Source of the DNA: Amphiura filiformis
Lineage: Eukaryota > Echinodermata > Ophiuroidea > Amphilepidida > Amphiuridae
DNA length: 64,000 bases
Assembly: GCF_039555335.1 (NCBI RefSeq)
Contig: NC_092628.1
Location: 95,925,782-95,989,781, forward strand
Direction of reading: 5' to 3'
Shown one piece after another: positions 742-64,000 of the stretch; the stretch's first letter is position 1; each line of letters opens with the position of its first letter. Made by a program: the position numbers and the translations under genes. The notes beneath the pieces are model-generated. The model did not search any database. It was not told the DNA's origin and worked only from the letters and a program-made list of their open reading frames with translations.

Positions 742-764
742 GAAAGAATAACAATTAGTAAGTG

Positions 765-32443: not shown

Positions 32444-34409
32444 GTGTTTGTAATGATTCAGGTAAACGTCATGCAAAGGGCATCAAAGTGAGAAGTCCTC
32501 ATCCACACATCCGCTAGTGTAACATGTTCAAATTTATATTCAATTAAGCAAAGACAAATATCGTCACAACAATATAAGATTGAAATGGGCTGTGTTCAAA
32601 TTTATACATCATCATGTTAAAACTGTCGTTCAAGTGTTCATGAAAGTGTTCCAAATTAGTGTTAAAATGTTTTAAAGAGGTATGGTGGACACAATAGGAT
32701 GGCGTTGCACGAAATGGGTAAAGGCTTTTGAATTTGGCGGGTGTTACCCATATTGAATACTGCCCTCCTATTATGTACGCCATGTTTCCAAAAGGCCAAT
32801 TAAGTCTTACTCAAAAGTGTTTATAATAACATAAAGACCTCACATGTTCTCTAATAAACTTATTTATATGTATAAGTTTTCCAAGTATTCCAAAGTCTAA
32901 AATCCCAGAAATTGAGGAGGGAGGGGGCGAGAACCAAAACATCAATTTTATACGGCCTTATTTTCGCGCTGGATTCAAATCAATACATAGCTTTTTTAAA
33001 TTCGGGGTTTTTGCTTTAAAATGTGTTGTTAACATTGAACGAAATTGGGCGAATGGGGTATCGCGTGTACTCATCTGCCTTATGTTAAAATATTGTCAGT
33101 GTTTGTAATGATTCAGGTAAACGTCATGCAAAGGGCATCAAAGTGAGAAGTCCTCATCCACACATACGCTAGTGTAACATGTTCAAATTTATATTCAATT
33201 AAGGGATCTAAAATGAGCGTTTATTGGGTTTCGACAGTATTTTTTGTGGGACCTGAGAGCACCCCAGACCTATCAATTGCATTCTGAATACGAAGCATGT
33301 CTTTCTGATATCAAATAATTTTCATTTTTGAAAATCACAATATAATACAAATTTTATGACAAATTATAAAAATTTGATATTTTTCAAATTTTTGATATAA
33401 TACAGTCCTCGAAGTAATTATATAAATCTAATGATATATTCTTAAAGTGTATGTAGCAGGAGGAAAAGCCGACAGTCAATTGAAAATTTTGACCTTTCAT
33501 ATTGAAGATATGGATTTTTTCCCAAAAGACCTAATTTTTTTGTGTTTTGGGAAAAAAAATCCATATCTTCAATACCAAAGGTCAAAATTTTCAATTGATC
33601 GTCGGCTTTTCATCGCACCTACATACACTTTAAGTATAAATCATCAGATTTATAAAGTTTACTTCAAGTACTGTTAAATATCAAAAATATCAATTTTTAA
33701 TGATTTGCCATAAAATGTGTATTAAATTGCGAATTTCAAAAAATCAAAATTATTTGATATCAGAATGACATTCTTCGTATTCAGAATGCAATTCGATATG
33801 TCTGATGTGCTCTAATGTCCCAAAATAAATACTGTCCAAACGTTCATACCCCAGCCCTTAAGCAAAGACAAATTATCGTCACAACAATATAAGATTGAAA
33901 TGGGCTGTGTTCAAATTTATACATCATCATGTTAAAACTGTCGTTCAAGTGTTCATGAAAGTGTTCCAAATTAGTGTTAAAATGTTTTAAAGAGGTATGG
34001 TGGACACAATAGGATGGCGTTGGACGAAATGGGTAAAGGCTTTTGAATTTGGCGGGTTTTACCCATATTGAATACTGCCCTCCTATTATGTACGCCATGT
34101 TTCCAAAAGGCCAATTCAGTCTTACTCAAAAGTGTTTATAATAACATAAAGAACTCACATGTTCTCTAATAAACTTATTTATATGTATAAGTTTTCCAAG
34201 TATTCCAAAGTCTAAATCCCAGAAATTGAGGAGGGAGGGGGCGAGAACCAAAACATCAATTTTATACGGCCTTATTTTCGCGCTGGATTCAAATCAATAC
34301 ATAGCTTTTTTAAATTCGGGGTTTTTGCTTTAAAATGTGTTGTTAACATTGAACGAAATTGGCGAATGGGGTATCGCGTGTACTCATCTGCCTTATGTTA
34401 AAATATTGT
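32444..34409. repeat. Tandem duplication of a ~655-bp unit
   Basis: Unit 1 (32444-33098) and unit 2 (from 33099, interrupted by 33203-33861) both begin GTGTTTGTAATGATTCAGG and end in GCCTTATGTTAAAATATTGT, with only a few substitutions and short indels. No gene is recognised inside. High identity means the duplication is recent. Confidence 0.85.
33203..33857. mobile_element. TTAA-flanked fold-back MITE, 655 bp
   Basis: TTAA lies at 33199-33202 and 33858-33861. The arms are about 320 bp each and mirror each other almost to the centre (GCATTCTGAATACGAAG with CTTCGTATTCAGAATGC; TTGAAAATTTTGACC with GGTCAAAATTTTCAA). The other tandem unit has a single TTAA at this site (32542-32552), a precise empty site. 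Confidence 0.85.
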
Positions 34410-36600: not shown

Positions 36601-39600
36601 ATGGTGGACAGATTTTGTGGAAAGTACAAGCTCGAAAAGAGCGAGAACTTCGATGAATTCATGAAAGCATTAGGTAAGTCGTTATACAGTATTCTACCGT
36701 TTCTGCATCTCCATCATTCTCCAATCTTTTATACATATATTATACTTTGGTATTCATAAATGGAATGTTATTTGTGATGTGAAATATTTTAAATGTCTCA
36801 TTCTCAGTATAAAGTACAAAAGTATCATGCTTAGCCTAATTGCTGCTTTTGAAGGTTTGGAGACATATGGAATCATGTATACCACACGAACGAAGGAGCT
36901 CGAAGGATGACGATAGTCGAGTCGGTCATGATTGAATAATTTCAAGTCTTACTAAACCATGCTACCACCACGGCTACCCATGCTGTGCCCAATTTATCTG
37001 TTATGCATTTTATGAATGATCAAGTTCAACGTCATGTTCAGCATGAGCATGGTCTAGACATGCTTTAAATATTAAGGGTAGACGAGGTATTGTTGGTCGA
37101 AGCAACCAAAAAATCGATTATCATTATCTAGATCAATATATTATTGAAAAAATGACATCTTGATGTTTTGCAAAAGTTCATTCTACAAATCCTATACTTT
37201 GAAAACTTGCTTAATTTATTGTTGTTAATGAGTTATGTATGTTTTACAAAAGTGTTGTTGTTTCAGCCCACTTTACAACATAACTCAAGAACCACAGTAC
37301 CTACAAAAGTATATTTGTGATATTTGAATTCTTTTACATGCTCGCTATGAAATAAGTTATGCAGTTTTTGCCAAAGCTTACTACCATTCGCAAGATGCTG
37401 TGAACTACCATATCGCAACAGTTCAAAATAGTTAATAACCTTAAAATAGCATGGTATAGCAGTATCACTGTAATATAGCATATCTGCTTATATCGTTACA
37501 CCATATTCCGACATGTCCAAAGAGGACATATATTTTCACTATCAAAAACCAATGAGCACAGATCCTAGGCCTAGTCTTGACAATCATAATTTAAAAAAAA
37601 TTGCAACCCGAGTTTATAAATATGCCATACCCTATACCGCTCACATATATGCATTTTTTCTTATATTTATACATCTTGAAGCTACATAAATGTAAGACGG
37701 TAATAGACATAAATACTCGGCCAAATAATTAAATTTTCCAATTGCATTGTATATTGAACTTCAAACACAAAACTCGGTCGTAATAACCTGAATAAGGAGC
37801 AACATCTTTAGGGTTTTGGAGCTTTTTGGGGTCAAAAAGAATAGTTGAACTCATGGTGACACATAGAAAGCTTTAGAAAATCTCATTTTGACCTGTGCCT
37901 CAACTTACTCCAAGTTGTTACTGCTGTGTATGCACAGCAAGGCACTTTATTGGTTTTAATAACGATGTTTTAAAATATGCCCAAAACGTCTTTGGCTGCA
38001 TGGGCATATAAATATAGGCACATTTTGAAGCATGTTAAAGTTTGCTTTTGCCATCAAACATGAATTTATATGAACGATTACTTGCTTTCATTAGCATTTA
38101 ATAGATATGTACAAGATATTTTATTGCTTTTCAATGTTATCAAACAACAAATAAACCCAAGTATATTCATGTTGGCATATTTACATAATACTCATGTTTT
38201 CATATCAATAATGAATTAACATTCACCCTTTATCAATAGCCTCATCATCAGGATCTACAATACATTTTCTTCAGTCATTCCTGTAATTTTTTTTCCATTT
38301 CTTCTTTTAACTTTTCACAGCTTTATTTATTTTTAATTCTTTGGGTTTAGATAAGATATTGCATCTATTGAAAACACATTTTCCCAATTATGGACTTTTT
38401 TTCCCCAAGTGTAAAAATAGTGTGTGTGTATAGTATCAAAATGTAGCCGGATGTCTAATTTAGCATTTATATGTGATATTAGTTTCCTTTCTCACATAGA
38501 AATCAATTATCTAATATGGTGTGGTATCAGATTAAACATTCTAGATCAAAAATACCCATTTTTTCTATTATTTTTACCCAACACCGCTCCATAGTCACAT
38601 TCTGACGAAGTCATGCGCATATCCTGCTTACAAATTAATTTTACATATTATCATCATCTTCTCATTGCAGGTGTAAACATAGCCCTCCGTAAAATCGGGC
38701 AGGTTACCAAGCCTCAAATGACCATCTCGCAAGACGGTGATCAGGTTACCTTCTTCTCAGAGTCTTCCTTCAAGAACATCAAAGTCACATTCAAACTTGG
38801 GGAGGATTTCAATGATACTTCACCTGACGGCAGGAAAGTTATTGTAAGTATTGAACAAGGTGTAAGCATTTCAAAACAATATCAGGAAAATATGACACCA
38901 AGGAAAATAATTATGCTATTGATTGATATTATGTGTGGGTCGGGTGTGTATGTAAGAGGGATGTATAGGCCAAGGGGACTGTGTGTGCAAAAATTGGCAC
39001 ATTTGTTCTTGTAAATCGTTTTGAAAGGAGACACAGGATCTGGAAAAAGGACACTGTTATCAGCTTTATGAGAAGAGAAAACACGAAATAACTGCACGAA
39101 GTGGTTTTTGGATTGTGGGGTTATATAGCTAATTAATATATATTTTTTTATATTAAATCACAGAATAACATAACTTTGGACGGTAACAAATTAATCCAGA
39201 TAGAGAAACCAGCAGCAGGGGAATCGGGCAAAGAGGTTACATACGTCAGGGATATCGATGCCAATGGCGACTTAGTAGTAGTAAGTAATATATTTCAAAG
39301 TTTTAGGGGCCTGAGCTTTCGATCCTAGCAGGATCTTTATCAAAGGCAGAGTGACAAGACAACACACAAACATGCATATATATAGGGACATGGACATAAA
39401 GGAAAAGGAAATTAGCAAGACAATAGAAGACATACGCAGTCTTAATATATTTTGATCCTATTTTCCCGCATATAGTTCATATTTTGTGTGTTTTGAATCG
39501 GGATGAAACGCACATAAATACTCTTGTTCCATACGACAACAGCTATCATGCCTCGGGTCATGCCTACCTGTTAAGTCTAATATAAACTTGTGTGTGCCTT

Positions 39601-40661
39601 AAGTTTCATAAAAAAAAAACCCGACTGTAACCTGTTACGTATAAGTAAAGATGATTATAGTTCCATTAAAAATGACTATGCAAAGCGATCCTTAAAAGGT
39701 CATGAATTTATTAATCATAGGAGACGCTAATGAGGAAAACAAGCATAATGCCAAATAAAATAAAAAACATGTTTCACATATAGGGGTCTTTTTATTTTCT
39801 ATTTTTATCACAAAATCGGTGTAAATACCCATAATTAGAGCTGTTTAGCGGTATACAATTATGCCTGGAAAAAGGAGGAGGCCTCTTTTTATTTGTTGTT
39901 CTGAGAGGTAGCCCCCTCTAATTATCGCAAAACCATACAAAAGTGTTTCTTGTATATTAGCAAGGCTATAGATTAGAAAGCATCTCTACTTCCAAGACAT
40001 ATTTTTTTGAAAAGTTATATAACTGAATTTCAAAAAATAAAAATATAATTGATGAAACCTCAAAAAAGGTAGCGGGAGGGGACGTAGTCTTTGTCAACGA
40101 CTGACTCGCGATAGTGGGGGACACGCGATCAAGGGGGGTGAGCGGCGAAGCCGCGTAGCGGCGAGAGCGAGTATTGGTTTCCGAGAGTGTGTGGTTCCCA
40201 GTAGTTTCTCTCCCTATGGATAATACAGGTATACACGGTCTGTAACACAGACTAGAGGGGACGTGAAGCATGTTTATTTTTTTTATTTGGCCGAAATTGT
40301 TGTATTTTGGCTGTTCAGACCATTACGGGATTTTTATTTTCACGTTTTAGAACAACCTCTCAACATGCTCAATAAGTTACCTAAAGTTAAAAACAAAGCT
40401 TGCTGTGATTAAAATGCAGTACGGAATAAAATACAAAAGCTTTGTATATACCATGCGCACAACATAAATTTATCCAAATAAAAACTTTTTTTTGAGGGGG
40501 TATCCTTTATTCACAGTTTGCGAATATCCGCGAATGCTCAATCATAAAAATAAAGAAAATTCTTAATTTATTAAGACATTTGATTAATATTTTGCTTTTA
40601 TTTTCTCCAGGTATGTACAACTGAAGGTATCACATGCACAAGACTCTACAAGAAGGTTTAA
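36601..40661 (+). CDS. Fatty-acid-binding protein, type A, copy 2 (four exons)
   Basis: Exons are 36601-36673, 38671-38843, 39164-39280 and 40611-40661, GT..AG throughout, giving 137 residues. The start MVDRFCGKYKLEKSENF has one residue more than A1. Exon 2 is the canonical 173 nt. The ligand-site residues are complete by eye: the R of TYVRDI and R-L-Y in the C-terminal CTRLYKKV. So this copy looks like the more conventional of the two A proteins. Introns 1 to 3 hold unique AT-rich DNA, a dispersed repeat (37077-37320) and a degraded Penelope-type end (39301-39350). Role: cytosolic binding and transport of a hydrophobic ligand. Confidence 0.9.
37077..37320. repeat. Dispersed repeat, copy without TTAA insertion
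   Basis: Same sequence order as 4330-5045 but uninterrupted at the TTAA, in A2 intron 1. Confidence 0.6.
39301..39350 (-). other. Degraded hammerhead-like end of a Penelope-type element
   Basis: On the - strand a 5-bp stem GATCC-TGCTA-GGATC is followed by GAAAG, as in hammerhead stem II and core, but the first core block reads TTGATAA instead of CTGANGA. The text AGCTCAGGCCCC beside it is typical of these element ends. Probably inactive. Confidence 0.45.
39351..40610. other. A2 intron 3, no gene seen
   Basis: AT-rich intron DNA. The open frame at 39966-40271 on the - strand includes a GCGGCGAAGCCGCGTAGCGGCG low-complexity patch and no domain. Confidence 0.4.
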
Positions 40662-47283: not shown

Positions 47284-50200
47284 CTGTGAAAACAATCAAA
47301 ATACATTGTTATGATTTTTGCAGAGTGCTGAATAACAGTTGACTATAAACTGCCCCTATCTCACACGTAAAGGTGGTTCGTCCAGCATGAGCAAAGTACA
47401 GCTTTACACTGGTAAAAAGTTGGTAATATTGCCCTCTGTTGATCAATACAGACAATTTACACTTGGATTCCATTCAGCAATATGTTGTGATCACAATGAT
47501 TATGATATATTATTATTGATGTTATCATAAATTAGGACTTCTATACTGTATTGAAGAGATCTTCCACCTAAAATCTTGAAAATCATATTAGCCAAGGAGG
47601 GCGGGGGAGGATGAATCGGAAATGAGTGATTAACCTTCTTACTCCATCTCACAAAGCGGCATCATTTACATTTTACATTTGCCGATCGAATGACCACATT
47701 TGTCTTCTTTCAATGGCAGCATTTTCTTTTTCTTTCTGCTTCTGTCAAATTTTTATTGTTATAAACAATTTGCTCATAATTTTGTAAACTTTCATCACAT
47801 CAAAATGTGTTAAATAGTTTGCAATTTTTCACTGTAAATGGCACAAAATGTACAATATTTCACAAAGCTCTTGTTAGGAACTCCTAATCCAATATTTTAT
47901 TGGATGCTCATTTCCAATTGCCTCTTTTGACTATTTTCTTCTGAGAAAACCATTTTTAAAGCCTGATATGCACTTGGACACATTAAGTGCATTTGATGTA
48001 TAAAATAAAATATCCCAGTGTATTTAACCAATAGTAAATAAGTTTCTCTGCCACATTTATAATTTGAACAAGAGTTATAATAAAAGGTATCATACTGTAG
48101 GAAGCATTTCACATACAAATCTTACCATTGTTATGTCCTGCAGACCCTCCTATGACTTGTATCATCTCATGATCCTCATTAACCATATTACTATGGTTAC
48201 TGGAAACTCCTTGGTTACCGGATCCTCCTTGGTTAAGGCTATAGTAGGCCTGGTTGTCATAGTGACTCAGACCATCATCATAATCATCTGAATAAGTCCT
48301 GACTCTATCTACCTGATTCTTGGGAAGCTTGACGAAATCCATGCGACGGAGATATTTGGCTAACTTGACGGCAAATATGAGGCTGATTGTCATCCAAAAT
48401 ACAATCCATCCAAGGGAAAACCATAGTGTGTTCTGTAACATTAAAAACAAATCACACTGTTTTCTTTAATGAACAGGTGATTATTACATTTACAATAAAC
48501 TGAAAGGTTTCATGTTGATGGTATTTTTACTGAGATTTTGCCATTTTTCAAGCCATCCATTTACTAGCCATTTAAGTATTTCCAGTTGAGTTGTAGAAAC
48601 AGATACATTCTACAGCAGATATGGATTTCTTATAAGAATTATTACTTCAGGAATGTTTTTGATGCGATGTTGGATTTAGAGGTGACAGAAGTAACTGAAT
48701 GCTCAAGAGTACACCAAGCAAATACTGTGTCATATGCAATAAGCAAGCAAATTAATGAGGTGTACTTTGTTTATATGCATGCTGCAATGAGAGTGCCCAA
48801 TTTAGCCACATGGCCCTTCGATTTAATGATGTTTGTTTCTTCATTTTGCTACTATAAACATGATATTGATTTAGTCTGTAAAGCTTATGTAGGATAAAAT
48901 CATCTCCCTGGTAGGTCATTCTTAGCTTACATCACAATTAATAATGGCGAATCTGTTTCAAGGACAATGAAATTGTGCATTTAAAAAACTGATAACTGAT
49001 ATTTTCAAAAGAAAATCATAATGACCAAAACAATTTACACTATTCTACCAACTTACCAACGATTCCAAGTCATAATGACACATAAGATTGATAGTTGCAT
49101 CATAGATGGTTCGTATTGGATAACATCTACCAAAGTCATATATCAACTGAAAAATAATAAAATGGTATTAATAATATGTCCATTGAAGACAAATAGACAC
49201 ATACAAATTTAAACTGTGATAACATTCAAACTTCTTTGAATGCACTTGTTTTGGAAGTCTTCCTAGTAGAACCAAAAGCTCTGATTTCATTAAATCAATA
49301 TTACCTACCATGCAAAATATTACATATGAATATGCCATGTAAATCCTATTCAGAAAGTAGAAAATATAGTATACAAATATTGACTGCTATGAGGGTCATG
49401 GTTAAAATTATAGGCCTAAGGTGATTTCAAAACCATGCTAGGACATGTGGCGCAGGGCCCCGGTTAGAACAGCTTTAAGCTGATTCGGGCATACCCTGGG
49501 TAAAGATAATAAATAATAATAATAAATAATAATGGTTTTAAAATCTTACACAGACTGATTATCAAAACCCAATATGCTTGTTAAATGGATGTATGGGGAT
49601 GTTGTGATTGTGTAGAATTTAATCGGGATGCACACCAGTCAATAGTTAGTTTCCATGACCGAGCATAGTTCATTTTGATGAAATTCTCTCAAATACAGGG
49701 CATAGTTAAAACAGTGCCCCACTTTTAACCAATCAGATGACAGGAATCTATATATGAGGTGTATAACACAAACTATCAACAAGACAGAAAGAAAGATGGC
49801 TGACAAATTTTCATGTTTTCTGTTTCTAGTGATGAACAAACAAAATGTTATCCCTAACTTACCTGGTCTATTGCTACATCAACAAACTGCTGCATGTACC
49901 CTATGACCACATCCAGATAACTTGACACAGATGCATCCAATACCTCTTCTAAGACTTTGGTATCATTCAAATTAGACTCTACCACAATCCCAGCTTTGCC
50001 AGTTTCATTAACAGCCAACTCTAATTGTGGTATGAGTGCTTGTAAGAGTTGTGAGTCAGAAAGCATTGATGCCTGTGATGAGACAAACATTTAAATAGCA
50101 AATAAATTTTGGGGTAAAAAATATCATATTAAAATGTACTTACAAATATATGTATTCTTTGGATATTTAAGATAATAACAAAGGCAACTTAAATCTGCAA

Positions 50201-53200
50201 ATGCATGATACGGAAAGGGGGAAAAATGCTTCACAAAAAAAAAATCAAACACAAGCAAACCATATCGAAAAAGAAAAAAAAATTGGAAATCTTTCTTGCT
50301 GTTTTTAACACTATGAAATTAAGTTGTTGTATGTAATCAAATGGCATTCAATGGAATGGAATATACGGGGGAATATAATGAGTTGATTATTTTATTCAAG
50401 CAGCAATGGCTGGCATTAACAGTGGCCATTGTATGTGTTCTTGGTATCTCACAATCCATCAAATGTATTTTTTAATACATTCATTCAGGGAGATCAAGCT
50501 CCCTTGTGCCCATGTAAAACATTTTTTATGTGTAGCACAGGGTTGTGGCTAGCCCAATTTGAGTATAGGCTAATTGTACTTTACAGTTGGAGTGCTGGCT
50601 CAGAGCACAATCATTTTAGCAAATGCGAGGTGTCAGGGAATAGGGTACAGGGGTATCACCCCCTTAAAAATGGGTGGTTCTTTTTTGCTTTTTAAGATGA
50701 AAAAATCATTTATTTAAAAAAATTATAATTAATTTCTTTTTGGTGCCAGTTACACCCAACAAGTGTAGCTACAACCTTGGTGTAGTAAGTGTGATTTTGA
50801 CATGTATCCTATGTGCCCACAAAGTGGTACATTATTGACTAATTTAAAGGTTTATTTGCTTTCCTTAAATACAAGTATAATATGTGATGTGATCAAGCAC
50901 AAAAGAAGGAAATGTTAAACTTACCGCCTCATATTATCAAAATGACACATTTGTAGTGCAATATGTTGTACAGGGAGTATAGTGGCAAGCGGAACGGGCT
51001 CTGACTCATGCGGGTTCGAGCCCAGGCGATGCAATCGTGTTGTGCCCTTGAGTAAGGCACTTTATCTCAAATACTCTGCTCCACTCAGGTGTACAAATGG
51101 GTACCGCCATTCTTAAATGCTGGGAAGGTAATAGACTCGCTGTGGAGGAGGTGTGGGGATCCACTCACAGCAACATTTCCCAGTGGAGTCTGGCCTTATC
51201 GCTAACGAAAGAGAGATGGGCATTCCGTCCTGTAAATACAGGTTCGACTCCTTTACCTTTATGTTGCTAAAATGCCATCTAAATGGGATATGATTGATGT
51301 GTGCCAAAGAGGCCAATACTTAAAGTATTACTTGAATAATACAAATGGCGTACTTGTTTTGGTTCTATTCTGACATGCTGATTCACACACTGTGCTTCAT
51401 TGCATAATATCTAAATAGTCACGCACATTCCATACTCACCATAGTATTCTCCATAACCTGCACAGTATTTTGCTGAATTTGTCTCAAATCCGATGCCACT
51501 TGCCTAAGATCATCTGCCACAAGAGCCTAAATCAAGCAAACAGATACAAAATAAACTGTATAAATAATGTGTTGTTTTCTTCGTTCTCTGATTTCTTTTT
51601 ATGTAACAAGCCTTTATGTCTTCAATAATGGGATGAATATGGGATCAAACCGCAAATAAGGCTGATGTCAGTAATTGTAGTTCTGATTTCATGATTTGAT
51701 GAGTTGACATTTTACATCATTTTCTTCACATAAATTGCTCAACAGCTGTATTTAAGATGATATAAATGGTCAAAAATATGGGGACATTCTGTGAGAACAT
51801 GAATTTACCAAAAAATATGGCTGTTGGTGATAGCCAGAACAGTCTTACATTGAATTTTTAGGTTTATATGGATTCAATGGCTTTGATGTTTAAAAATAAG
51901 CAACGAAATCAGTGATAAATGAATGTTGCTGTTGAAATTAATCAATAAAGACCTTTGGGTGACAAATTAAATTGTTAAATAAGGGGTCTTTGTGTGAGAG
52001 CGGTGTTGAAAATGGAGGTCTTAACATCACTTCTGAAATGAAAGTGACCCCCCCTGGACTGACAATTCCTGTGGTAATGCATATGATGGGCAAACGTCAC
52101 TTTCTAGCTAAGACCACTGTCCTGTACCCATCATGCATGAACTACTAATATGAACATATATATTTTCCTGAACATATTTGAAACAAATGTTAACTTTTCT
52201 TACATTGTTGTCTGCAGTTGTCTGCAGCTCTCTTGAATATGCGTTCAAATCATCTGTTGTCACATTCTCTTGTAACTATTGAAAAGCAAAAATGGAACAA
52301 GTTATAAACACTGAATCAGTTGAAACTCAACTTATTAAGTTAGATATCAAAGATCGATTGATTAAAAAATGCAGACTGCCAGATTTTCTTTTTCAAGGTA
52401 CACTTTCAATCTGACAGGACAAAAGGAAGATCAAAAGATTTCAAGTCATGTATCTTTGGACATAATTACTAGGGTTTCAAACAAAACCCACATAATATAA
52501 ATAAAAGTAACTGTCAAACCAAAACCTCTAATTACAACCTCTGTAGCAGTTGAGATTGAATTAATAATTTCCTCTCTCTTGGCTCAAAGGCTAACAGTAA
52601 AATTGTTGACATGATTTGTTGGGAGTGGCCTTCTTTTCCTTGTTCTTTATTTGCAATAAAGTTTCTTTCTTTTCACATAGGCCAGGATGCTTATAGGTTT
52701 TTAGCTTGGCTTGAGCATTGTGCTTGAGCCTGGGCCCATAAGGACCCAAATGTGCCTCTACACCGAGTGACCCTTTAAACAAACAAACTTGGTAAAAATA
52801 AATACACAATTGAAGACCTCATAATTAAAAGGCGGTTAAGTCAAATTGAGTGCATTTCAGGATAAATGGTAAAGAAGGTTGTTATGTCCATGTAGTTTCA
52901 TTGCAAGGAGATGGTTTGTCCATGTAGTTTCAATACTTATTCTACTATGAAATTAGCATAATAGGTGTATATAGCCCCATTGTAGCAGAAACAAGCACTA
53001 ACTCATTTTTCATGATTTTGTGACTTAACCCCCTTTTAGTTCTGAGGTGTTCAATATTGTTTTTATCGTGTTCATTGATATTCTCATATGACTTACCAGT
53101 GTTTCCATGACAACATAATCAATCTGATCCAACTGAATCTGATCTACAGAATATTGAAGCAATGGTCCAAGATTATCTGGCACTAAATCACTCAAATCAA

Positions 53201-56200
53201 CATCCCCTATGTCTATCTCATCTATCAGTTTGGCTGTCTGGTTTTTAACTTCAGAAATGATCTAAATATGAACAAATTATCATATCATTCATTATTTTGA
53301 ACTAATGTAGAAAAGTACATGCACATTGGAAATCACAACAGCAGAAAGCAAGTTGAAAAATTTGCTCAAATTTGGCATTACAATGTATTAAAATCAAACA
53401 AAAATTGGTAAGAGAAAATCAAATTTCACACAGAACAATTTTAATGACCTCAACATATTTTCACACTGCAACAATAGCTGAATGCTGAGACCTTATCATC
53501 ACTTGCATGCCACAAGATACAAGCATGTACCATTGATCATCTTCCTAGCAACTCAGTAAGTTAATATCTTGTAAGATTTCATTCAGTTCTCACCTTTTTC
53601 AAATCATTGACATCAATAATATTCTCTAATTGTAATGCACTGTAGATAGAAGAATTCTGCTCACAGTCTTCCAGAATAGATGTAGATGTTAGAGGGATAG
53701 AAGAATTACGCAGGAGGAGATCCCCTAGCCAGTAGCCTTCTGATAGCAAGTCTGGTTGGTCTATTGTCTGCAAACAAAGAAAGAGATGAACAGGATATTG
53801 ATGTACGGTTTAGCCTAACTCGAACATGAGGTTTGTTAACTTGAAAATTCAATTTCCTGTGTGATTATAGATAGAGATTTATGTGCAAAATAAGCTAATT
53901 GTTGAGAGGAATCACAATTACTACTGTTCCAACTTTTATCATCCTTGTCCATAATGTCTTCCAATTAAAGGAGTATTTTGTGATTCTAGCATCAACTTCT
54001 TAAAACCCAAAAACATTGTCGACACAATTATTTTGTCCCCATTCCCCCACCCCTTGTCAGATTTTCAGAGCTTGGGAAAAAGTGATGGAGTGATCAATAT
54101 ATCAACTTGCCACAGGTCACCATTAGCGTTTCTGGTGCAACTGCTTAAGTGAAGCAAAATCGTCATCAGAACGGTAAAGTGGCAGAAAAGTATGAATCCA
54201 GCAATAGCGGTCATTTTTCCATCTGATTCTGAGTTTTGTAAAAATGGTATTGTTTCTAACCCTCATGTACAATTTATTTATAGTATTGTTAACACGTTTG
54301 TTTGTTACCTAACATACCTCATTGAGGAGTTGTAAACTTTTGAGTGGTTTACATGTTAAGGTGATAGGAGCAAAAACACCAAAGAAGACAGATGTACATA
54401 ACATCAGTAGTGGGGTTAGTAGGAATGTTAGTACTACACCACTGTAATACAAAAATATGAAATAGTGATTACAACAAATAAGTGTTACGTTTAAGGAAAA
54501 CACACTATTAAGGAAAGTTTACATTCAGTTGGAATCAGGAGAATTTCATGGGGTAATAAAGAAAATATATGGTGGAGAAGGTGGTTCATTGTTATGTCAA
54601 CTTCTATAATAGATGTATTTTATGAGTGTATATTCACCTCCATTTAGGCAATTTTAAGAAAAAGACAATTGAAGATTTGCTCCTACTTATACTATTATAC
54701 TTATACGATGAGGCCTTGCTACACTGGCTTATAACTTTGAAATGGGTGTGTTCTGGAGATAAGGCTTTGTGTTATTACTGAAAGAGAATTTTTTTCTGAT
54801 TTTTTTTGTACCAAAATCTAACTTCCGCCAAAAAATAGAAATGAGGTAGTATTGCGCCGAGCCCTCAATATATGTGACCTGATCAAACCAGGTTAAAGGA
54901 GGCAGTTGTAAAAAGTAAGATACAGGTGAAAATAGGGAGAAAAAGAACCCCAAAATGCTGAAATACCTAGGAAAAATAAAAGCTCACAACTTTGCACCAT
55001 AAATATGCTAGGAGTGTAAGCATTTCAGTAATATCCCACATGGTACTTATACAAGTTGATAATGATGATATTTACTGGATTGTTTTCAAAAAATGCCTCC
55101 TGTGGCCTGGTTAGATCAGAGCCTGCCCTTATTGTGGCAATGGGGGACTTTGAACACTTTTAAGATGGATAAGCATATGTGAATAAACTACTTTGAATTG
55201 AATTGAATTGAACAAACTAGTTTAGGAATATTTGAGAGAAATCAGTGGGTGACAGCAAAACAAAAGAAAGTTAAAACAAAACAGGATTACTTGGTGAGAG
55301 GGAGTTACAAACAAAGTTTAATGCATTAACTACAACAGAATCATATACTGAGTGGGTTTACTCCACTTTCTGCTGACATAAACCTTTTTTGTCTTATTTT
55401 TGTCTACAGTCCAATCAACTTACAGCATAAGGAAGTTACCACAAAAGTTAGCAGCAGACGACCTTTCTCTTGGATCTATGTCTTTAGAAACAATAGATCC
55501 TAATATAAGTCCAATGGTAAATATACCGAAGATGAGAAAACATAGCAAGATGAGACCAAGCATTGTGTAATCTCTGAAAGAAAAAAATATAGCAATAATA
55601 AAGCATTTCAAATAGTGAATCAGATCAGTAGTCCCCAGTTTGACTCAAATTATACCTACAAATTACAATGCAAAACCAATGAAGTTAAAGGAGTATTTTG
55701 TGACCTTAGCATCCTCTTTTTTATGACATTTTTCAGTAGATATCCACGAAAAAAGCATATTCCAAAATTTCAGTTGTTTCCGATTTTGCTTTTGCAAGTT
55801 ATGCATGATTATGTGTATACTCGTACACTGCTCCGTAGGCCACTGTGTTGAATTGTGTTCTGGTATTCTCTTGGTCGGACTGACGTCACAAAGGGAAAAT
55901 AGCCTTGTAAAACCAGTGTGCGCATGTGCAGTTCCCCATTCTCAAACTGGTTGCTATACGCGCGCGCTTGTGCAAAGGCGACGAAGTGGACAATGTTCCC
56001 GACCGAGCGAATGCCAGAACGAAATTCAAATTTGGTGATATCTTTGTTAAACAAATTAATCTGCAAGAAATATTTTGTACATAAACATTTTGTAGCCAGA
56101 GGTTTCCAGTGGTATAAAAATCTCAACTTTTTTTGAGAAATGTGGGGGATGAGGCTGTGGATCATAAAATGCAAGAGGACATTAAAGGAATTGGCAGTCT

Positions 56201-59200
56201 GTTTTTCCGGAATTACATGTTGTTAAATCCTCAGCTTGAGACCAGTCTACTGAATCCCATTAACATTCTTGGTTCACTAAAATATGACATTTATTTGAAA
56301 ACAAAACCTTGACACAGTGGCAGGTTAACTTTATGTGGCATATATGTGAATGCCATGATATTTGGAATATTTACCTGTACAGAAGGTAGTCATCAGCCAC
56401 ATCAAGTCTGTCATGTATGCGGTTTTCATATTCCCCCATTTCATCTGAAATCTGGTTACAAAAATATTCAAATGGTCTTTTCACTCCCTGATATTTGATA
56501 TACATGTACTATACTGGAAAAAGAACCTCAAAGGCATTGGGCTATATGCTAGCTGATTGCCATACACACCCTTTTGAAGATATAACCTTAATCTTCCACA
56601 CACAGGGAGTATGAATCTCGAATAGAGTTACCTGAATGGGGGACTCCATTTGCATTTGCATATTTTTGAAGTTGCATAATAAAAATAAATAGGGACAACA
56701 ATCAAAGATAGAATAGAATAGAATAGATTTATTAGTGGAGGCGCACTCCAAACACAATCTTACATGGCAGTGTAACCAAGCTCAACATGACCGAAAAAAT
56801 GTATGAACCATCGTCCAAAGATATAGGCAGTGAACACCATGCATAGTACTGTAAAATTATAAAAAGGCGAAGGGCACAGAGGGTACCTGCTTCCAGTAAT
56901 AACCTTGTTATAAAACTTTAACCTTGCTTTAAAGATTAGAAAATCTTCTGCTGAGAAATTCTAAATTATATACTAACAGCCTATATATTGAAACCTTATC
57001 TTGGTTTCTAAAAAGAAATATCCATACATAACCAAAGTCATACTTTTTGGTTTATAATATTCAAAACTATGAATATTGAAAGATCATTTATAACATTCAA
57101 AACTATGAATATTAAAAGATTATACCAATCATATCGGTCTTTTGTGAAGTTTTGGTGGCTCTGAAAAGAGCCGTTCATTCTCTTGATTCGAAAACCTTTT
57201 CTGTCTCTTTTTAGAAACTATAGAGTCCTTTCTTGGACTCGAGTATGATATCAAGTCCAGACTAGGACCCGATGCGAATGATGAAACCTGACTAGGTTTG
57301 AAAAAACATCAAGGCCGCAGGCCCAATATAGAAGGGCTCCGTAAGGCATGAAAGCAATTATTTATTATTAAGACTGTGAGTCCTCTCTTGGACTCGAGTT
57401 TGATATCAAGTCCAGACTAGGACTTGATACCGAATGATGAAAACCTGACTAGGTTTTAATCTTGACGATGGTGACTGCGAGTCCTCTACTGGACTCTGAA
57501 ATTGATAACGAGTCCTGACTAGGACCCGCTACAGAATGACGTTTCTTACTGAGAACATCGCTATTTATCTTATATCTGCTGCACTCTCATTGGTCGGTAA
57601 ATCGGGATGCCTGATTGGACGGTAAGATTGGCTAATCGCGGAGCTCGCTAAAATGGCCAATCAGAGACGATGCTGTTTTTCTCGCCGTTTCTCGTTTATC
57701 TGCGTAGAATCGGCTAACCTCTTAGCATCATATGCAATGGTAGGCTTACCATTCATATATAAAACCTTTTTTGCTGTGGTTTTCATTTATTACTACGACA
57801 TTCAGAACTTTGAATATCTTAAATTTAGAACGCCCTTACCAAAAATAGAGAAACCTATACTTAGTGCGTGAACACATCATCACTTTAAAACATGTATAGG
57901 TCTGCATGTTTTTAAACTTAAAAACACTATAAATATTTCTTATTATAAGTAATAACTATTACTTATAAATAAAATATCGATGCCGACCGGCTTGGATAAA
58001 AAGCATACAGTTAGCTAGACAAGCCTGTTTCGATCCTCAAGGGATCTCATCAGTAGCACTGTTAAGGTCTATTTCTGACCTATGCATTAAGTAAAAATTA
58101 TAAATAATTTCTACTCCTCAGAAGACTCACTGGTCAACCGACTATCTTTTGAACTTTTAGTGGCTCTGAAAAGAGCCGTTCATTTCTGGAGAATACTTTC
58201 CGTAATATCTCGTCATGATAAACTTATCACTTTTGAAGGGTAAAAGCTGTCCCTTTCACAAACCTATATAAAAGTAAACTTACTTTTTAGAACTTTCGGT
58301 GGCTCTTGAAAAGAGCCGTTCTTTGTGTGATGGATCAAAAACATAAACTTTGTTTTTGGTAGAAGGAAAACTGTCGTTTTTTAAACGATACTAGGTTTTC
58401 TGGATTTGGTATGAAGTTAGGCCTTTCCCGAGTGCTAGAAATTCTTGATACGAAAATTTGTAATCTTACAAATTCATAATTGACTGTTCTGCTTTCTTAA
58501 TTAAAAAAGTCCGTTGCTGACTTTTTAGTTTATATTTTGACTGTTCGTCTTACAGTCTGATGTTTTATAATATTCTTGCGATTGACCTCAATCACTATTG
58601 AATGCAATTACTTTGCACGAAATATTTCTATAGTAAATATAAGTCAATATTTTTGCGATTTTGAAGATTTTGCCAATTGCGCGAGAGTTAAATTTCACGG
58701 TTTTGATATTGATACAATAGAAACCTAATGCAAAAGGTTATTTTTGTGAGTTTTTATTTTCGCGATTTTATGTCCACTCGCGAAATTCGCGAAAATAAAA
58801 ACCCCGCGAAAATGTCTACTTTTACAGTAAATATTTGTGAGCCTATTAATTGGCAACTACTTTTCTTAAAATCAAAGTAATCAAAATGAATCAAAAACCA
58901 ATTCAAGAGTTATCAACTTACTGCTGACAGCCTGTCATCAATGGTTGTGTACACATTGGCTATATTGTTACTGGTTTCAAGAAGAATATTTTCTACGTCA
59001 GTAATGGGGTCTTTGGCAACATCATTGATGGTCTGTGCTATTTGATCTAATGCAGCAACACCCTGGAAAGAAAATAAGGGGGTTAATACCATTTATTATA
59101 AATTTTTTAATTTTAGCTCTATTATTTATGTTCACAGGACACAAATTCTTTGAATTATGAATATCATGATTTTATGAAAATAAGGCAAAAAAAAGTTGTT

Positions 59201-62200
59201 ATTTATCCTCCAATTTCAGTGTCAAATTTTGAAATTTAGTAAAAGGTTTCTTTTTGTTGTCTTTACTGTACAAAAGAATACCTACTCTAATTTTATACAT
59301 CTCATAAAAAGTGTTTTTCGTTTCATAGTAATTGTAGTTTAAATTACTAGAGATTTCAAAAAAGTAATTTCACACTTCTTGCTTCAAAACATGAATGAAG
59401 TGATGTAATTATGATATATCCATATTCACATCTAATTAGGTTTCATTGCAAAGTTCCATGCAGTTTGGACTATGAAATTTACAAACACAAATTTTGAAAA
59501 CCATAAAAAAAAGTTTTTTTATGCCTATCTACTCCTACCCCAGACTATTTGTGGAGGACAAACAAACATCAGGCTATTCCAGTTGAAATCCATATGCCCC
59601 CTATGGAAGACATGACCTTAATTTCCCCCACATGGAGTGAAAATTTCAAATGGAGTCATCCATTCAGGAAATCTCATTTGAAATTCACATCCCCCTGTGT
59701 TGAGGATTAAGATCATGTCTTCCATAGGGGGTGTATGGGTTTCAACTGGAATAGTCCATTTTATTTTCTTGTCCGCAACAATTTTGTTCTATCTCAAGGA
59801 TTCACATTTGACTGACAAAATAAGACTTTATTTTCATATCTTATGCAATAACAGACAGATATTATCAGGAAATCATATTTTTAGAAAGGAAATAACACAA
59901 CGAAACATGCAACTTTAATTAACTCCAGAATTTGGGGAAATATCTATCTACATTTGAAGAGAATCCCAAAAATATGATAAATAAACTCATTTTGTACCTG
60001 GTTGTAGATATTAGTAATATTTGCTTCAGCTTTCTCAGCTCCATGGATTTGATCATCAAATTCTGGAAGCTACAAGAATCAAATTGGAAAACAAAGCAAA
60101 AAGGTGATTTTGTACGGTATAATCACAACTAAGAGAATCAATCAAATGAACTTTTATTTTCAAATCACAACAACAAAACACTAAAACATGTGATAAGGAA
60201 AATATTAAGGCCTTATTGCTTCAATTTTATCATGTATCTGGAGGTACCAATCTATACTGGGAATTTCAATTGAATGAACACAGCTGCACAATCCGACGAA
60301 CATCCTGTGGGATGGACGCTTGTGTGTGTGTGAGGCGGAAGTAAATCAGACCATGCCAACTCACTTGTGATTGGTTAGTATTGTATCCAAGGTCGTGCAT
60401 TCGCGTTGTAGTTTGAAATAAGCGATATATGATCGCGGTTGGATTGAATAGAGCTGTTGAAAGCTGAGTCATTCAATTGAAATTCCCAGTAGAAGTGAAT
60501 ACTTTGTGACACAATCTAATCCAAGCAAAACAAAGTCAGCAACAATGACAATGAAATATAGGCAAAAATAAGGAGCAAAAAACATACATGACACACACTA
60601 AGTTGATAACTTTGCAACCAAGTATGCCTGGTACTTACAGATTTCAACATCAGCAATAGGTACTGAGTAAGTTAGAAATAACAATAACAAAAATTGTTAA
60701 AATGTCTGACTTTGGTCTGAGTGGATCATCTCATCTCACATATCATATAATATTTTACTTATTTACTTCATTGATAACTTACTTGTAACTTCTTCTTAGT
60801 TACTGTGCAACATTCCTTGTGGAACAAGATGCATAGGATTGTGGTATGCATGGTGAGGACATATTTAGTCCTTACTGTTCTAATTCTGGGCTCTGATGAA
60901 ATCACCTACGGTGATTTTGAAGTGTTCAGGATCTGGGTATATGTACTGGTTTGGGGACAAAAGAGTACTTATGACTTATGCTTACCTGTGTATAGTCAGA
61001 AGAGTACTTATGCTTACCTGTGTATAGTCAATATTACTTGTCAGTCCATTATTAGATGGCACACAGCCAGTACATGTAGTATTGATACTATCTAATATAT
61101 CTGTAACATTCTCAAGCTGACTGTTCAAATTCCCTCCATTATTTATCAAGAAGATGCGAGAAATGTTCATGTTGTGAAGAGTAGAGCTGGTATCACTCAA
61201 ATCTGAAATAATAATTATTGAAAATTATGCACAGTCAAACATGCTCAGCTCAAAAATTCTTGTTGATAACTTCTTGACAGAGTCACAAGTCATATATTCC
61301 TAGATAAGAAAAATATGAATGTGTCTATATGCATTGCGCAAGAATTTGACAAGGAATTAAAAAAAACGATCAATGCACTTGTCGGCTGCTACATGCATCT
61401 CATTTCACATAATCGCTAGGAATAAATACCAGACTCATCCGAAGTGGGGGTCACTTCAAATCATCCCAAGTCACATGGTTCAGGAATACAGATAACATTT
61501 CTTATCCAATTTGACTTGGGGATGATTTGAAGTGACCTACACTTGATATGAATCTGGTATTTATTCCTATGGGAAATGTAGCAGCCGATAAGTGCATCAT
61601 TTTGATGTGGATGTACACATATTATGCTCAGGTCTTCTTCCAATAAACTATGTTTTTCATATTTTGACACATATTTCAACTAGATGGACCGCGGTTCTCG
61701 GATGTCGCGGTTTTCGACACAAAGCGTCGACCGTGATGCCTCCACCAAAGGGAGCAATGTGGCACTCAAAAGTTCATACAAAGCTTCAAGCCTAACAGAG
61801 CAGACTGAATTTGACCTCAGATGACACCTTCAACCTTCCAATGACACCTGGGTGATCCCGGATGACCTTCAAAAATTTTGGCTGTAAATGGTGACAATAC
61901 CCACCAAGTTTCATGCCCATAGGACAAATATTAAGAATTTGACAGTTTTTACTAATTTGACCTCAGATGACCCCAAAATGGCCTCCCAAAAATTTGGCTC
62001 TAAATGTTGACCTTACCCACCAAGTTTCATGCCCATATGATAGTTTTTACTAATTTGACCTCAGATGACCCCTGGTGACCCCAAAATGACCTTCCAAAAA
62101 TTTGGCCCTAAATGTTGACTGTACCCACTAAGTTTCATGCCTATCCAACAGTTTTTACTAATTTGACCTCAGATGACCCCTAGTGACCCCAAAATGACCC

Positions 62201-63764
62201 TCCAAAATTTTGGCTCTATATGTTGATTATGTTTACCAAGTTTCCTGCCCATGTGACTGTTTGTACTAATTTGACCTCAGATGACCCCTGAATGACCTTG
62301 GATGACCCCGAAATTACCTTCCAAATATTTGACTCTAAATATTGACTGTACCCACCAAATTTCATGCCCATACGACTTTTTACTAATTTGACCTCAGATG
62401 ACCCCTGGATGACCCCAAAATGACCTTCCAAAAATTTGTATCTAAATGGTGACTGCACCCACCAAGTTTCATGCCCATACAACAGTTTTTGCTAATTTGA
62501 CCTCAGATGACCCCTGGATGACCTCAGGTGACCTTGACCCCCTAACCAATACAAACATGTTCTGCCTGGGGTCAAGATGCACCCACCCACCAAGTTTGAG
62601 TAATGTGCGACCCCTAGTCTCTGAGAAAAGAGGTAAATAAGGAAATGACCTCAAATGACCTTTTACCTAAGTATATGACCTTGAACCTCACCCAAAAAAA
62701 AGTAGCCAGAGTTTCTGACCATGACCCACCTATCCTGAAAATCTGAAGTCAATCCGTCCATCCATGCCAGAGATATAGCCTCCGGACGAAAGGACGGCAG
62801 GAAGGACGGAAGCACGGACATTGCAAAAACAGTATGCCTCGCGGTGGAGGCATAAAAACTAAATAATTTCTACAACAAGTTTCATGCATAATGCTACTAT
62901 GAAATTTAAAAGAACAGAAGAAAAAAAAGAGAACCTCCTTACAAATAATCAAATAGCCAAATGGTACAGAAAACATCAATATTTGAGTCCATTCTTTTAG
63001 TCAAGCAGAATTTTGGCTCATATTATGGGCAAGTTTAGTAGTATCCGAGTTCATTCAGTCTGCACAGAGTATGTCTTGTTGCTAATAACTGTCCCAAAAT
63101 AAAACTGGCTCTTACGCTGAACAATATATGAGATATAGGTAGGGGCGTAGCCAGCTGTTTTGGTCGGGGGCAAAATAAAATTTGGGGGGGCACAGACAAA
63201 AAAATTACAGTTGCCTCATACAATATATAGAGACTGCGTGTCTTCAAGCTTTAAAAAAAGGCCTTATTGGGATGATGTGCACGCGTACCTTGCCCCTTTT
63301 CTTTTCCTTTGCCCTCCTGATTTTCTCTTTCATTTTTAAGGGGCACTTTTTTCTTTAATTTTTTGTCAGGGGGGACTCTGCCCCCCCCATGTACTGGATA
63401 TAGGCAATATATATATGGTCAAACAGAGAGAAAACATTTTTAAAGTAGGGTGTCAATTTAAATGTACCATTAGAGCACATGCTGGTGGCCTTTTGGGTGG
63501 TCTTAACTCAAAAAGTTTGAAAATGGCAGTTATTGGCTTTTGAATCGGAAATCTTCAACTGTCAAAAAACCAAGATACAACAACAACAACAAACGTCATG
63601 CCATCATTACTCACTGATGATGTAGGCGGTTTGAAATTCTTGACATATATATCAACTTGTCAACTTACTATTAATTAACTTTTCAAGCTCATTAAACAAT
63701 GACTGGACTTTGACCTCCTCCAATAAATAAGTCTGAATTGGTTCTGCAATTAGTGTGCCTGCAT
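47225..63764 (-). CDS. PROM1-like: Prominin family five-pass membrane glycoprotein, partial gene (15 exons)
   Basis: Fifteen exons on the - strand, each with AG and GT borders and all mutually in phase, give about 670 residues. In order they encode part of ectodomain loop 1, TM3, a short cytoplasmic loop, TM4, loop 2, TM5 and a cytoplasmic tail. Matches to vertebrate prominin, recalled from knowledge, include GNFLML before TM4, the CEQNSSIYSALQLEN block (vertebrate GTYGTLHLQN region), FGRCYP and FAVKLAKYLRRMD after TM5. About ten N-x-S/T sites lie in the loops. Prominins bind cholesterol and mark plasma-membrane protrusions. Exons for the N-terminus, TM1 and TM2 lie right of 64000. The terminal 3' exon is unsettled. 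Confidence 0.9.
48126..48432 (-). CDS. Prominin exon: TM5 and start of cytoplasmic tail
   Basis: 307 nt. It starts NTLWFSLGW, runs through TM5 and the conserved FAVKLAKYLRRMD, then a hydrophilic tail rich in Asp, Tyr, Asn and Gly. Ends with one base of the next codon before GTAAGA. Confidence 0.9.
49057..49146 (-). CDS. Prominin exon: end of loop 2
   Basis: 90 nt, 30 codons, with LIYDFGRCYPIRTIYDA and a second Cys, the conserved cysteine-bearing segment just before TM5. Confidence 0.9.
49440..49535 (+). mobile_element. Truncated SINE with AAT-rich tail
   Basis: ATGTGGCGCAGGGCCCC and GGGCATACCCTGGGTAAAG followed by an (AATAAT)n tail, the 3' end of a SINE in a prominin intron. Confidence 0.55.
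49863..50072 (-). CDS. Prominin exon: loop 2
   Basis: 210 nt, 70 codons, with two N-glycosylation sites (NETG, NDTK) and a helical pattern ending GYMQQFVDVAIDQ. Confidence 0.9.
50970..51290 (+). mobile_element. tRNA-derived SINE
   Basis: A-box-like TATAGTGGCAAGCGG and B box GGGTTCGAGCCC at tRNA spacing, then the common SINE body text GTTGTGCCCTTGAGTAAGGC and ACTTTATCTCAAATAC. A second GGTTCGACTCC lies near 51240. Confidence 0.8.
51440..51526 (-). CDS. Prominin exon: loop 2 helix
   Basis: 87 nt, 29 codons, ALVADDLRQVASDLRQIQ with a coiled-coil-like heptad pattern. Confidence 0.85.
51765..52055. repeat. Dispersed GGTCTTTGGGTGACA repeat, copy 2
   Basis: Same word order as 21780-22260, including AAATCAGTGATAAATGAATG and CTTTGGGTGACAAATTAAAT. 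Confidence 0.5.
52204..52275 (-). CDS. Prominin exon: loop 2
   Basis: 72 nt, 24 codons, LQENVTTDDLNAYSRELQ, one N-glycosylation site (NVT). Confidence 0.8.
53097..53261 (-). CDS. Prominin exon: loop 2
   Basis: 165 nt, 55 codons, starting IISEVKNQTAKLIDEI, with one NQT site and ending DYVVMETL. Confidence 0.9.
53594..53767 (-). CDS. Prominin exon: start of loop 2
   Basis: 174 nt, 58 codons. Contains LEDCEQNSSIYSALQLEN, the best conserved loop 2 motif of the family, with NSS glycosylation sites. Confidence 0.92.
54318..54441 (-). CDS. Prominin exon: TM4
   Basis: 124 nt, entered with the third base of a Leu codon. Hydrophobic TM4 from GVVLTFLLTPLLMLC, then TCKPLKSLQLLNE. Confidence 0.92.
55080..55215 (+). 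mobile_element. SINE 3' end with (TTGAA)n tail
   Basis: GCCTCCTGTGGCCTGG then GTGAATAAACTACTTTGAAT and tandem TTGAA units, a SINE tail pattern. No head is visible. Confidence 0.5.
55424..55573 (-). CDS. Prominin exon: TM3 and cytoplasmic loop
   Basis: 150 nt. TM3 begins at MLGLILLCFLIFG, then the short basic/acidic loop SKDIDPRERSS and CGNFLML leading to TM4. Confidence 0.92.
55689..56181. mobile_element. TTAA-flanked MITE, 493 bp
   Basis: TTAA lies at 55685-55688 and 56182-56185. The left end AGGAGTATTTTGTGACC and the right end GGATCATAAAATGC are imperfect inverted repeats with GAGGATGC and GGATGAGG blocks. Left-end fragments of the family recur at about 53970 and 17731. It lies in a prominin intron. 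Confidence 0.7.
56375..56451 (-). CDS. Prominin exon: end of loop 1
   Basis: 77 nt, ISDEMGEYENRIHDRLD to LLY and a split Arg codon (AG|A) joined to the TM3 exon. Confidence 0.88.
56555..56660. mobile_element. Fragment of the GGCTATTCCAG MITE family
   Basis: GATATAACCTTAATCTTCC then ACACAGGGAGTATGAAT matches the inside of the element at 59572-59757. Confidence 0.45.
57157..57172 (-). terminator. Histone mRNA-type 3' stem-loop
   Basis: Perfect 6-bp stem, 4-base loop (GGCTCT-TTTC-AGAGCC), with AAC before and ACCA after, and a candidate histone downstream element within 20 bases. Confidence 0.8.
57223..57525. repeat. Array of repeated short hairpins, three units
   Basis: Type 1 stems GAGTCC..GGACTC lie at 57223-57240, 57378-57395 and 57479-57496. 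Type 2 GTCC..GGAC stems around a GACTA-containing loop lie at 57255-57268, 57410-57423 and 57511-57525. Type 3 AAACCT-GACT-AGGTTT stems lie at 57284-57299 and 57440-57457. Compensating changes between units keep the stems paired (TTTCTT, TCTCTT and TCTACT loops; GTCCAGACTAGGAC versus GTCCTGACTAGGAC). Confidence 0.75.
57569..57764. promoter_or_regulatory. Divergent promoter-like region with four CCAAT boxes
   Basis: CCAAT boxes on the - strand are at 57589-57593, 57614-57618 and 57627-57631, and one on the + strand at 57657-57661. They lie between TATAAG on the - strand (57574-57569) and TATATAAAA on the + strand (57756-57764). The layout resembles divergent H2A-H2B promoters. Confidence 0.55.
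58007..58062 (-). ncRNA. Hammerhead ribozyme (type I)
   Basis: On the - strand ACAGTGCTA pairs with TAGCTAACTGT (stem I with a TA bulge). The core CTGATGA is followed by stem II GATCC-CTTGA-GGATC, then GAAA, a 3-bp stem III (ACA-GGCT-TGT) and the GTC cleavage triplet, cut between 58018 and 58017. Every invariant core base is present. The very short stem III is the form known from Penelope-like elements. Confidence 0.75.
58162..58177 (-). terminator. Histone mRNA-type 3' stem-loop, second copy
   Basis: Perfect GGCTCTTTTCAGAGCC on the - strand, preceded by GAAC, followed by ACTA and TTCAAAAGA. Confidence 0.75.
58301..58317 (-). terminator. Histone mRNA-type 3' stem-loop, third copy
   Basis: GGCTCTTTTCAAGAGCC on the - strand, one base longer than consensus (7-bp stem, 3-base loop), preceded by GAAC and followed by ACCGAAAG. 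The DNA upstream on the - strand again holds short hairpins (AAAAAGTC..GACTTTTT near 58505-58530; AATTTGTAA..TTACAAATT near 58455-58475). Confidence 0.65.
58922..59062 (-). CDS. Prominin exon: loop 1 helix
   Basis: 141 nt, 47 codons, GVAALDQIAQTINDVAK to TTIDDRLSA, amphipathic. Confidence 0.88.
59572..59757. mobile_element. MITE with GGCTATTCCAGTTGAAA ends
   Basis: Left AGGCTATTCCAGTTGAAATC and right TTTCAACTGGAATAGTCC are inverted, continuing through CCCCCTATGGAAGACATGA and its complement. 186 bp, in a prominin intron. Confidence 0.75.
59998..60069 (-). CDS. Prominin exon: loop 1
   Basis: 72 nt, 24 codons, LPEFDDQIHGAEKAEANIT with one NIT site. The short size makes it less certain, but phase and splice sites fit. 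Confidence 0.8.
60257..60489. mobile_element. TA-flanked MITE, 233 bp
   Basis: Ends CTGGGAATTTCAATTGAATG and CATTCAATTGAAATTCCCAG are perfect inverted repeats flanked by TA (60255-60256, 60490-60491), as in Tc1/mariner derivatives. The perfect ends suggest a young insertion. Confidence 0.85.
61018..61202 (-). CDS. Prominin exon: loop 1 with two cysteines
   Basis: 185 nt, LSDTSSTLHNMNIS to NIDYTQ, with NIS, NVT and NTT sites and a CTGC pair. A 32-bp tandem duplication repeats the exon end and donor site, giving a second GTAAGC at 60980-60985. Confidence 0.85.
61373..61597. mobile_element. Fold-back MITE with ATGCACTTGTCGGCTGC ends
   Basis: The left arm (ATGCACTTGTCGGCTGCTAC, then AGGAATAAATACCAGA and GTCACTTCAAATCATCCC) is mirrored by the right arm ending CAGCCGATAAGTGCAT. 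225 bp. Confidence 0.7.
61680..62857. repeat. GATGACCCC minisatellite element, copy 2
   Basis: Same start (GATGGACCGCGGTTCTCGG), GATGCCTCCACC, about nine degenerate ~100-bp units and the same end GCCTCGCGGTGGAGGCATA as 10292-11139, with more units in this copy. Confidence 0.75.
63130..63400. other. Degraded GGGGCGTAGCCAG-type MITE and low-complexity DNA
   Basis: A GGGGCGTAGCCAGCTG end followed by GGGGGGGCAC and, at the far side, GGGGGGACTCTGCCCCCCCC. No clear matching end or target duplication. Confidence 0.35.
63669..63764 (-). CDS. Prominin exon: loop 1, first exon in the window
   Basis: 96 nt, AGTLIAEPIQTYLLEEVK to NELEKLIN, amphipathic. It enters in phase 1, so an upstream exon ending in one spare base is required; none is clear before 64000. 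Confidence 0.8.
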
Positions 63765-64000
63765 CTGTGTAGAAAACAAAAGAAATAATTAGTATATGCA
63801 GAAAGCCTCACCTCTAGATAGTTGCAGTCTTTCAAAGGTACTCACATTATTGATGTCATATTTTTTTAGCCTATTTCTCTGGTCTGTTAAATAGTTAAAT
63901 GAAACATGCAGAACACAGATATTGAGTATTTCACAACTTTTTTTCATTGGTAGATAAATTGTCATCAAACATTTGATTTCATCTCAAGTTAATATCATAA

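Follow-up and report, generated by a model that had tools for sequence, protein, structure and literature searches.

Why does the genome of the brittle star Amphiura filiformis carry what looks like a short histone transcription unit that ends as histone mRNAs do and has no histone in it? A sequence-only reading of this locus had proposed either a non-coding RNA made and processed like a histone mRNA, or a mobile unit carrying histone control elements. We analyzed the whole 64 kb stretch of DNA in which it lies (hereafter the window; Table 1). The unit without a histone proved right as anatomy; of the two proposals, a mobile or repeat unit is favoured and a non-coding RNA less so. Our main reading, to which we assign a probability of roughly 0.45, is that the block derives from a repeat and is a mobile unit, probably a non-autonomous one, lying in sense orientation within an intron of a prominin gene; its mobility, transcription and processing we infer. 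The histone controls of such a repeat-derived non-coding unit would be either borrowed or convergent.

Table 1. Features of the two loci, with the evidence on which each was called
Feature	Position	Strand	Basis
Second hammerhead core, following the C-terminal part of an ORF of GIY-YIG (Penelope-like) type	387-424	+	core scan with three stems
Palindromic repeat around the second cluster, arms 761-907 and 1177-1322	761-1322		arms 75% identical
Second cluster, four stem-loops: 872-891, 954-973 and 1018-1037 on -; 1193-1212 on +	872-1212		pattern match, Rfam
Prominin gene intron holding the block, SL1 to SL3 and a hammerhead	56452-58921	-	flanking exons match consecutive parts of P0170
Candidate histone downstream element CACAAAAGA	57138-57146	-	7/9 to sea-urchin HDE
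SL1, perfect histone 3' stem-loop with ACCA	57153-57172	-	RF00032 above gathering; exact pattern match
Hairpin module C	57214-57303	-	folding, sequence comparison
Hairpin module B, with three hairpins (CCTAGTC at two of the loops)	57370-57460	-	folding
Hairpin module A, without first hairpin	57471-57545	-	folding, sequence comparison
TATA-like motif of the - strand promoter, ATATAAGA at 57568-57575	57561-57575	-	read from sequence
Four CCAAT boxes, three on -, one on +	57589-57661		motif scan; P ~0.26 per window, random placement
TATA-like motif of the divergent + side, TATATAAAA	57756-57764	+	read from sequence
Predicted type I hammerhead ribozyme core	58018-58053	-	stem I of 4 bp, continuing past an internal loop; stem II of 5 bp; stem III short
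SL2, histone stem-loop, then ACTA	58158-58177	-	RF00032 33.4 bits, E 8e-6, just under gathering; 1 mismatch
SL3, histone stem-loop with one extra base, then ACCG	58297-58317	-	RF00032 28.1 bits, E 0.00075, under gathering

A histone 3' end in a prominin intron

Rfam returned a single gathering-level match in the 64 kb window, SL1 (RF00032, 35.2 bits against a gathering threshold of 34, E 1.7e-6), which matches GGCTCTTTTCAGAGCCACCA exactly and has AATGAAC as its 5' flank. By Rfam, SL1 is a genuine histone 3' element, and the perfect stem-loop with ACCA claimed earlier on the minus strand is confirmed. The histone stem-loop pattern, with up to three mismatches allowed, was found six times in the window against zero in each of 100 shuffles. 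The candidate downstream element agrees at 7 of 9 positions with the sea-urchin HDE, CAAGAAAGA; this is equalled by 6% of background stretches, and the match is not significant. Two tandem 36 bp copies lie just downstream of SL1 (57051-57122); inspected by eye, both contain a small hairpin of AATATTC and GAATATT.

The intron is 2.47 kb long and holds the block in the sense direction. On the minus strand, the exons on either side of it (59065-58922 and 56451-56374) correspond to successive stretches of P0170, an A. filiformis protein annotated as uncharacterized that carries a Pfam prominin domain, and more prominin exons extend down to 47222 and match P0169 (prominin-2-like). Where the match is clean, P0170 and the window agree at 85-98% by exon; given these residue differences, P0170 may be the product of another allele or of a close paralogue. 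An inverted repeat with 20 nt arms, 95% complementary, is located in the same intron at 58750-58802, upstream of the stem-loops on the minus strand.

Elsewhere in the window, the first two exons of a gene for a fatty acid-binding protein (2384-2455 and 3058-3231) are 100% identical to an A. filiformis NCBI protein. This gene belongs to a tandem family (2384-4212, 6374-9513, 21317-28180 and 36601-40658), with an inverted copy of the third exon at 15746-15639. The arrays at 10424-10961 and 61841-62523 look by eye like a single repeat of about 108-119 bp. Two long palindromes (22467-22668 and 33465-33609) were matched by microRNA precursor models below threshold; as a guess, they are perhaps MITE-like.

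A promoter-like block and seven stem-loops without a detected histone

The divergent block described in the sequence-only reading was recovered in all its parts, with four of four CCAAT boxes and a TATA-like motif on both sides; its CCAAT cluster, at the same time, falls within chance. The boxes lie at 57589, 57614 and 57627 (ATTGG on the plus strand) and at 57657 (CCAAT on the plus strand), and form the densest group among the 165 such motifs in the window. At least four CCAAT within 95 bp arose in 26% of 2000 random placements, so that the cluster is not strong evidence alone. Read 5' to 3' on the minus strand, SL3, SL2 and the hammerhead are followed by the CCAAT/TATA block (57764-57561), the modules (57545-57214), SL1 and the candidate downstream element. 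The order from promoter through hairpin body to stem-loop is complete, and on its sequence the right-hand unit has everything that a short histone-type transcription unit would need except the histone.

That the histone is missing, as the earlier description had it, agrees with the protein searches. Searched by tblastn with five typed histones, the 64 kb window yielded no histone coding sequence (best E 0.23), and on that result a histone gene or pseudogene there was rejected. A protein read from the whole minus-strand body was likewise rejected, with several stops in each of the three frames of 57150-57560.

SL2 and SL3, which the sequence-only reading had missed, lie upstream of SL1 on the same strand. 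SL1 is 92% identical to SL2 over 38 nt and 86% identical to SL3 over 42 nt, and no similarity of SL1 to either was found beyond these stretches. At both, the candidate downstream element matches the HDE at 6 of 9 positions, against a background of 27%. No second copy of the promoter-hairpin-stem-loop unit was found within the 64 kb window, nor were clear element ends of the unit; the sole candidate, an AT-rich flanking repeat (57048-57062 and 58561-58575, 14 of 15 nt), may be due to chance. A second cluster of four stem-loops lies about 56 kb from the prominin-intron block. The window thus holds seven stem-loops in two clusters, six found by pattern plus SL3. Two such clusters in 64 kb without a detected histone coding sequence make a single odd gene unlikely and a repeat with histone 3' ends likely; seven stem-loops in two otherwise dissimilar places are more readily accounted for by a repeat than by one special gene.

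These observations bear on whether the block could be a histone orphon, i.e., a dispersed gene fragment that kept its promoter and 3' ends and whose coding part has disappeared or given way to repeats. Histone orphons are known from sea urchins, a precedent that speaks for this origin, and a CCAAT/TATA promoter and stem-loops are indeed parts of histone genes. We nevertheless consider it unlikely, because the tblastn searches with five histones left no histone coding trace, regular hairpin modules fill the space between promoter and stem-loop, and three stem-loops in one intron plus four elsewhere do not amount to one orphon.

The hairpin-rich body

The roughly 400 bases before SL1 had been called hairpin-rich, and folding bears this out: the folding energy of 57150-57560 on the minus strand is -140.5 kcal/mol, whereas 100 shuffled versions average -95.8 +/- 5.0 (z -8.88). 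The body contains three diverged hairpin modules with spacings of 155 and 102 nt. Module B folded alone gives three separate hairpins (z -6.3). When folded alone, modules A (z -4.3) and C (z -4.7) each form one longer helix from the arms of the second and third hairpins; in the full fold, module A shows two separate hairpins, and the second and third hairpins of module C remain merged. CCUAGUC is found at or across the loop in five body hairpins, and as CUAG is self-complementary, these hairpins could pair loop to loop.

Such a body might be expected of a host gene for a non-coding RNA that is processed in the manner of histone mRNAs, with the CCUAGUC-loop hairpins as its working parts. The complete promoter-to-3'-end order and the strong folding (z -8.9) argue for this explanation, as does the module pairing, which is kept in 98.3% of 60 cells and includes two pairs in which both partners have changed. 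Against it, with three modules compared, the covariation was equalled in 118 of 500 shuffles, too often to demonstrate selection on the RNA, and the compensatory changes were rejected as proof of RNA structure, since across the three copies they fall short of significance. Modules A and C also take a different, longer helix when folded alone, while the extra stem-loops and the hammerhead in the intron, together with the second cluster elsewhere, resemble repeat debris. On balance a host RNA gene appears improbable, and we retain the repeat-derived unit.

The second stem-loop cluster

The second cluster, also absent from the sequence-only reading, is enclosed in a palindromic repeat. Its plus-strand stem-loop has an intact 16 nt and the three on the minus strand have stem changes; RF00032 finds three of the four, all below gathering (24.2, 19.7 and 18.0 bits). 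No downstream element was found at any of the four, with 4-5 of 9 positions matching the HDE. By eye, TATTTAT and ATATGCAAA motifs at the centre of the palindrome make up a second divergent layout. A decayed hammerhead was considered in the palindrome arms (CTGACGA at about 1270 on the plus strand and about 805 on the minus strand) and rejected by eye, the GAAA box being missing.

In blastn comparisons (E up to 0.05), the two clusters have only 20-28 nt around the stem-loop in common, which fits constraint on the stem-loop part alone. AAC is kept before the stem in all seven stem-loops, and the stem is followed by ACCA in two, ATCA in three, ACTA in one and ACCG in one. Such kept flanks are what a protein such as SLBP would need and a mere DNA hairpin would not. 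The stem-loops are accordingly quite unlikely to be look-alikes of the histone stem-loop, hairpins formed at the DNA level by a DNA transposon or palindromic repeat and without an RNA role: the second cluster does lie inside a palindromic repeat and the region has many short inverted repeats, but a DNA hairpin needs neither AAC in seven of seven nor the ACCA or one-base variant after it, and SL1 scores above a curated RNA threshold.

Predicted hammerhead cores and a candidate Penelope-like ORF

Both loci also carry a predicted hammerhead core, neither of which was in the sequence-only reading. The window has two, against a mean of 0.007 in simulated windows of the same dinucleotide make-up (one in 150 windows). 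Both lie within 447 bp of a stem-loop cluster (P 0.0028 by random placement, in a test devised post hoc). The core in the prominin intron combines CUGANGA and GAAA with three stems that a script, counting G-U, scored at 4, 5 and 4 pairs, and strict cores like it occurred in none of 150 simulated windows. It scores under the Rfam gathering threshold (best RF03152, 31.2 against 56.3 bits, E 0.32). In the free-energy fold of this stretch, stems I and II are kept and part of the core is paired (z -1.4, equalled by 17 of 200 shuffles). It is the single match to this core in the window at up to three mismatches; tandem copies are thus absent there, which rules out a retrozyme array.

The left core, a minimal one, follows the C-terminal part of an ORF (2-274) that matches the GIY-YIG domain PF01541 below the cut-off (E 0.0028, 18.4 bits against 22.6). 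GIY-YIG belongs with the Penelope-like family. The ORF has 155 relatives at E up to 0.001; among the 120 of them listed, nearly all are unnamed and several carry precomputed PF01541, and the ORF of the window ends where relatives such as P0049 continue. None of 49 stretches from IMG/VR, a viral collection, contained a relative, and 2 of 64 in GTDB did, both as 19-residue matches only, in bacterial bins. An ATA microsatellite at 710-737, between the left hammerhead and the left stem-loops, suggests that they come from different insertions, and the left hammerhead (387) probably does belong to another insertion than the adjoining stem-loops. For the right locus, a Pfam scan at E up to 1 of the three minus-strand frames of 49997-63999 gave no match, in a scan insensitive enough to miss the prominin exons there too, and no stop-to-stop ORF of at least 90 aa was found on either strand of the prominin intron. 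The unit is perhaps linked to hammerhead retroelements, and might be tied to Penelope-like elements.

The exact stem-loop and module patterns had no match in IMG/VR, and in GTDB genomes the stem-loop pattern was likewise not found; as the two collections are made up of viruses and prokaryotes, misses there mean little.

Proposed mode of action

If the repeat-derived unit is active, RNA polymerase II would start at about 57540 on the minus strand, below the CCAAT/TATA block, and the product would be a hairpin-rich non-coding RNA about 390 nt long. Cleavage by SLBP and U7 snRNP would follow immediately after SL1, leaving an RNA that lacks poly(A) and builds up in S phase or in oocytes. SL2, SL3 and the hammerhead would represent further 3' ends, either of this insertion or of related ones. 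A broader proposal, which we regard as a long shot, is that one group of brittle star hammerhead-bearing retroelements and their non-autonomous kin end their RNAs with a histone stem-loop instead of poly(A), with SLBP providing export, stability and S-phase timing and the hammerhead acting as a second cutter.

Comparison with known systems

The histone 3' end is generally regarded as a property of histone mRNAs, and histone stem-loops are not known as parts of Penelope-like elements. Among the titles and abstract openings listed for the literature on the histone stem-loop, SLBP and Penelope, in which few subscription journals are represented, none mentions such a stem-loop within a transposable element. 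The word "histone" is absent from the main text of PMC7229834, and neither "histone" nor "penelope" occurs in that of the A. filiformis genome paper (PMC11310086).

Like the metazoan non-LTR retrozymes described in PMC7229834, the block is non-coding, low in GC and associated with a type I hammerhead; unlike them, it has a single hammerhead rather than a 150-450 bp tandem array, and histone stem-loops. The same paper reports minimal type I hammerheads in Penelope-like elements, which the left locus resembles in having a GIY-YIG ORF end followed by a hammerhead core, whereas the right locus has no element protein detected by our insensitive protein scan. With the sea-urchin histone orphons the block shares dispersed, solitary histone gene parts in an echinoderm, and it differs in having no detected coding remnant.

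The closest likeness in control elements is to the replication-dependent histone genes of animals, with their RF00032 3' ends: the stem-loop with its flanks, ACCA and the CCAAT/TATA layout are common to both, whereas the block has hairpin modules in place of a detected coding sequence and several stem-loops in one intron. If our reading is true, a repeat that took over the histone 3' end would be a parasite of S-phase RNA processing, would offer SLBP and U7 a non-coding substrate of natural origin, and would supply ready-made, replication-timed 3' ends across the genome.
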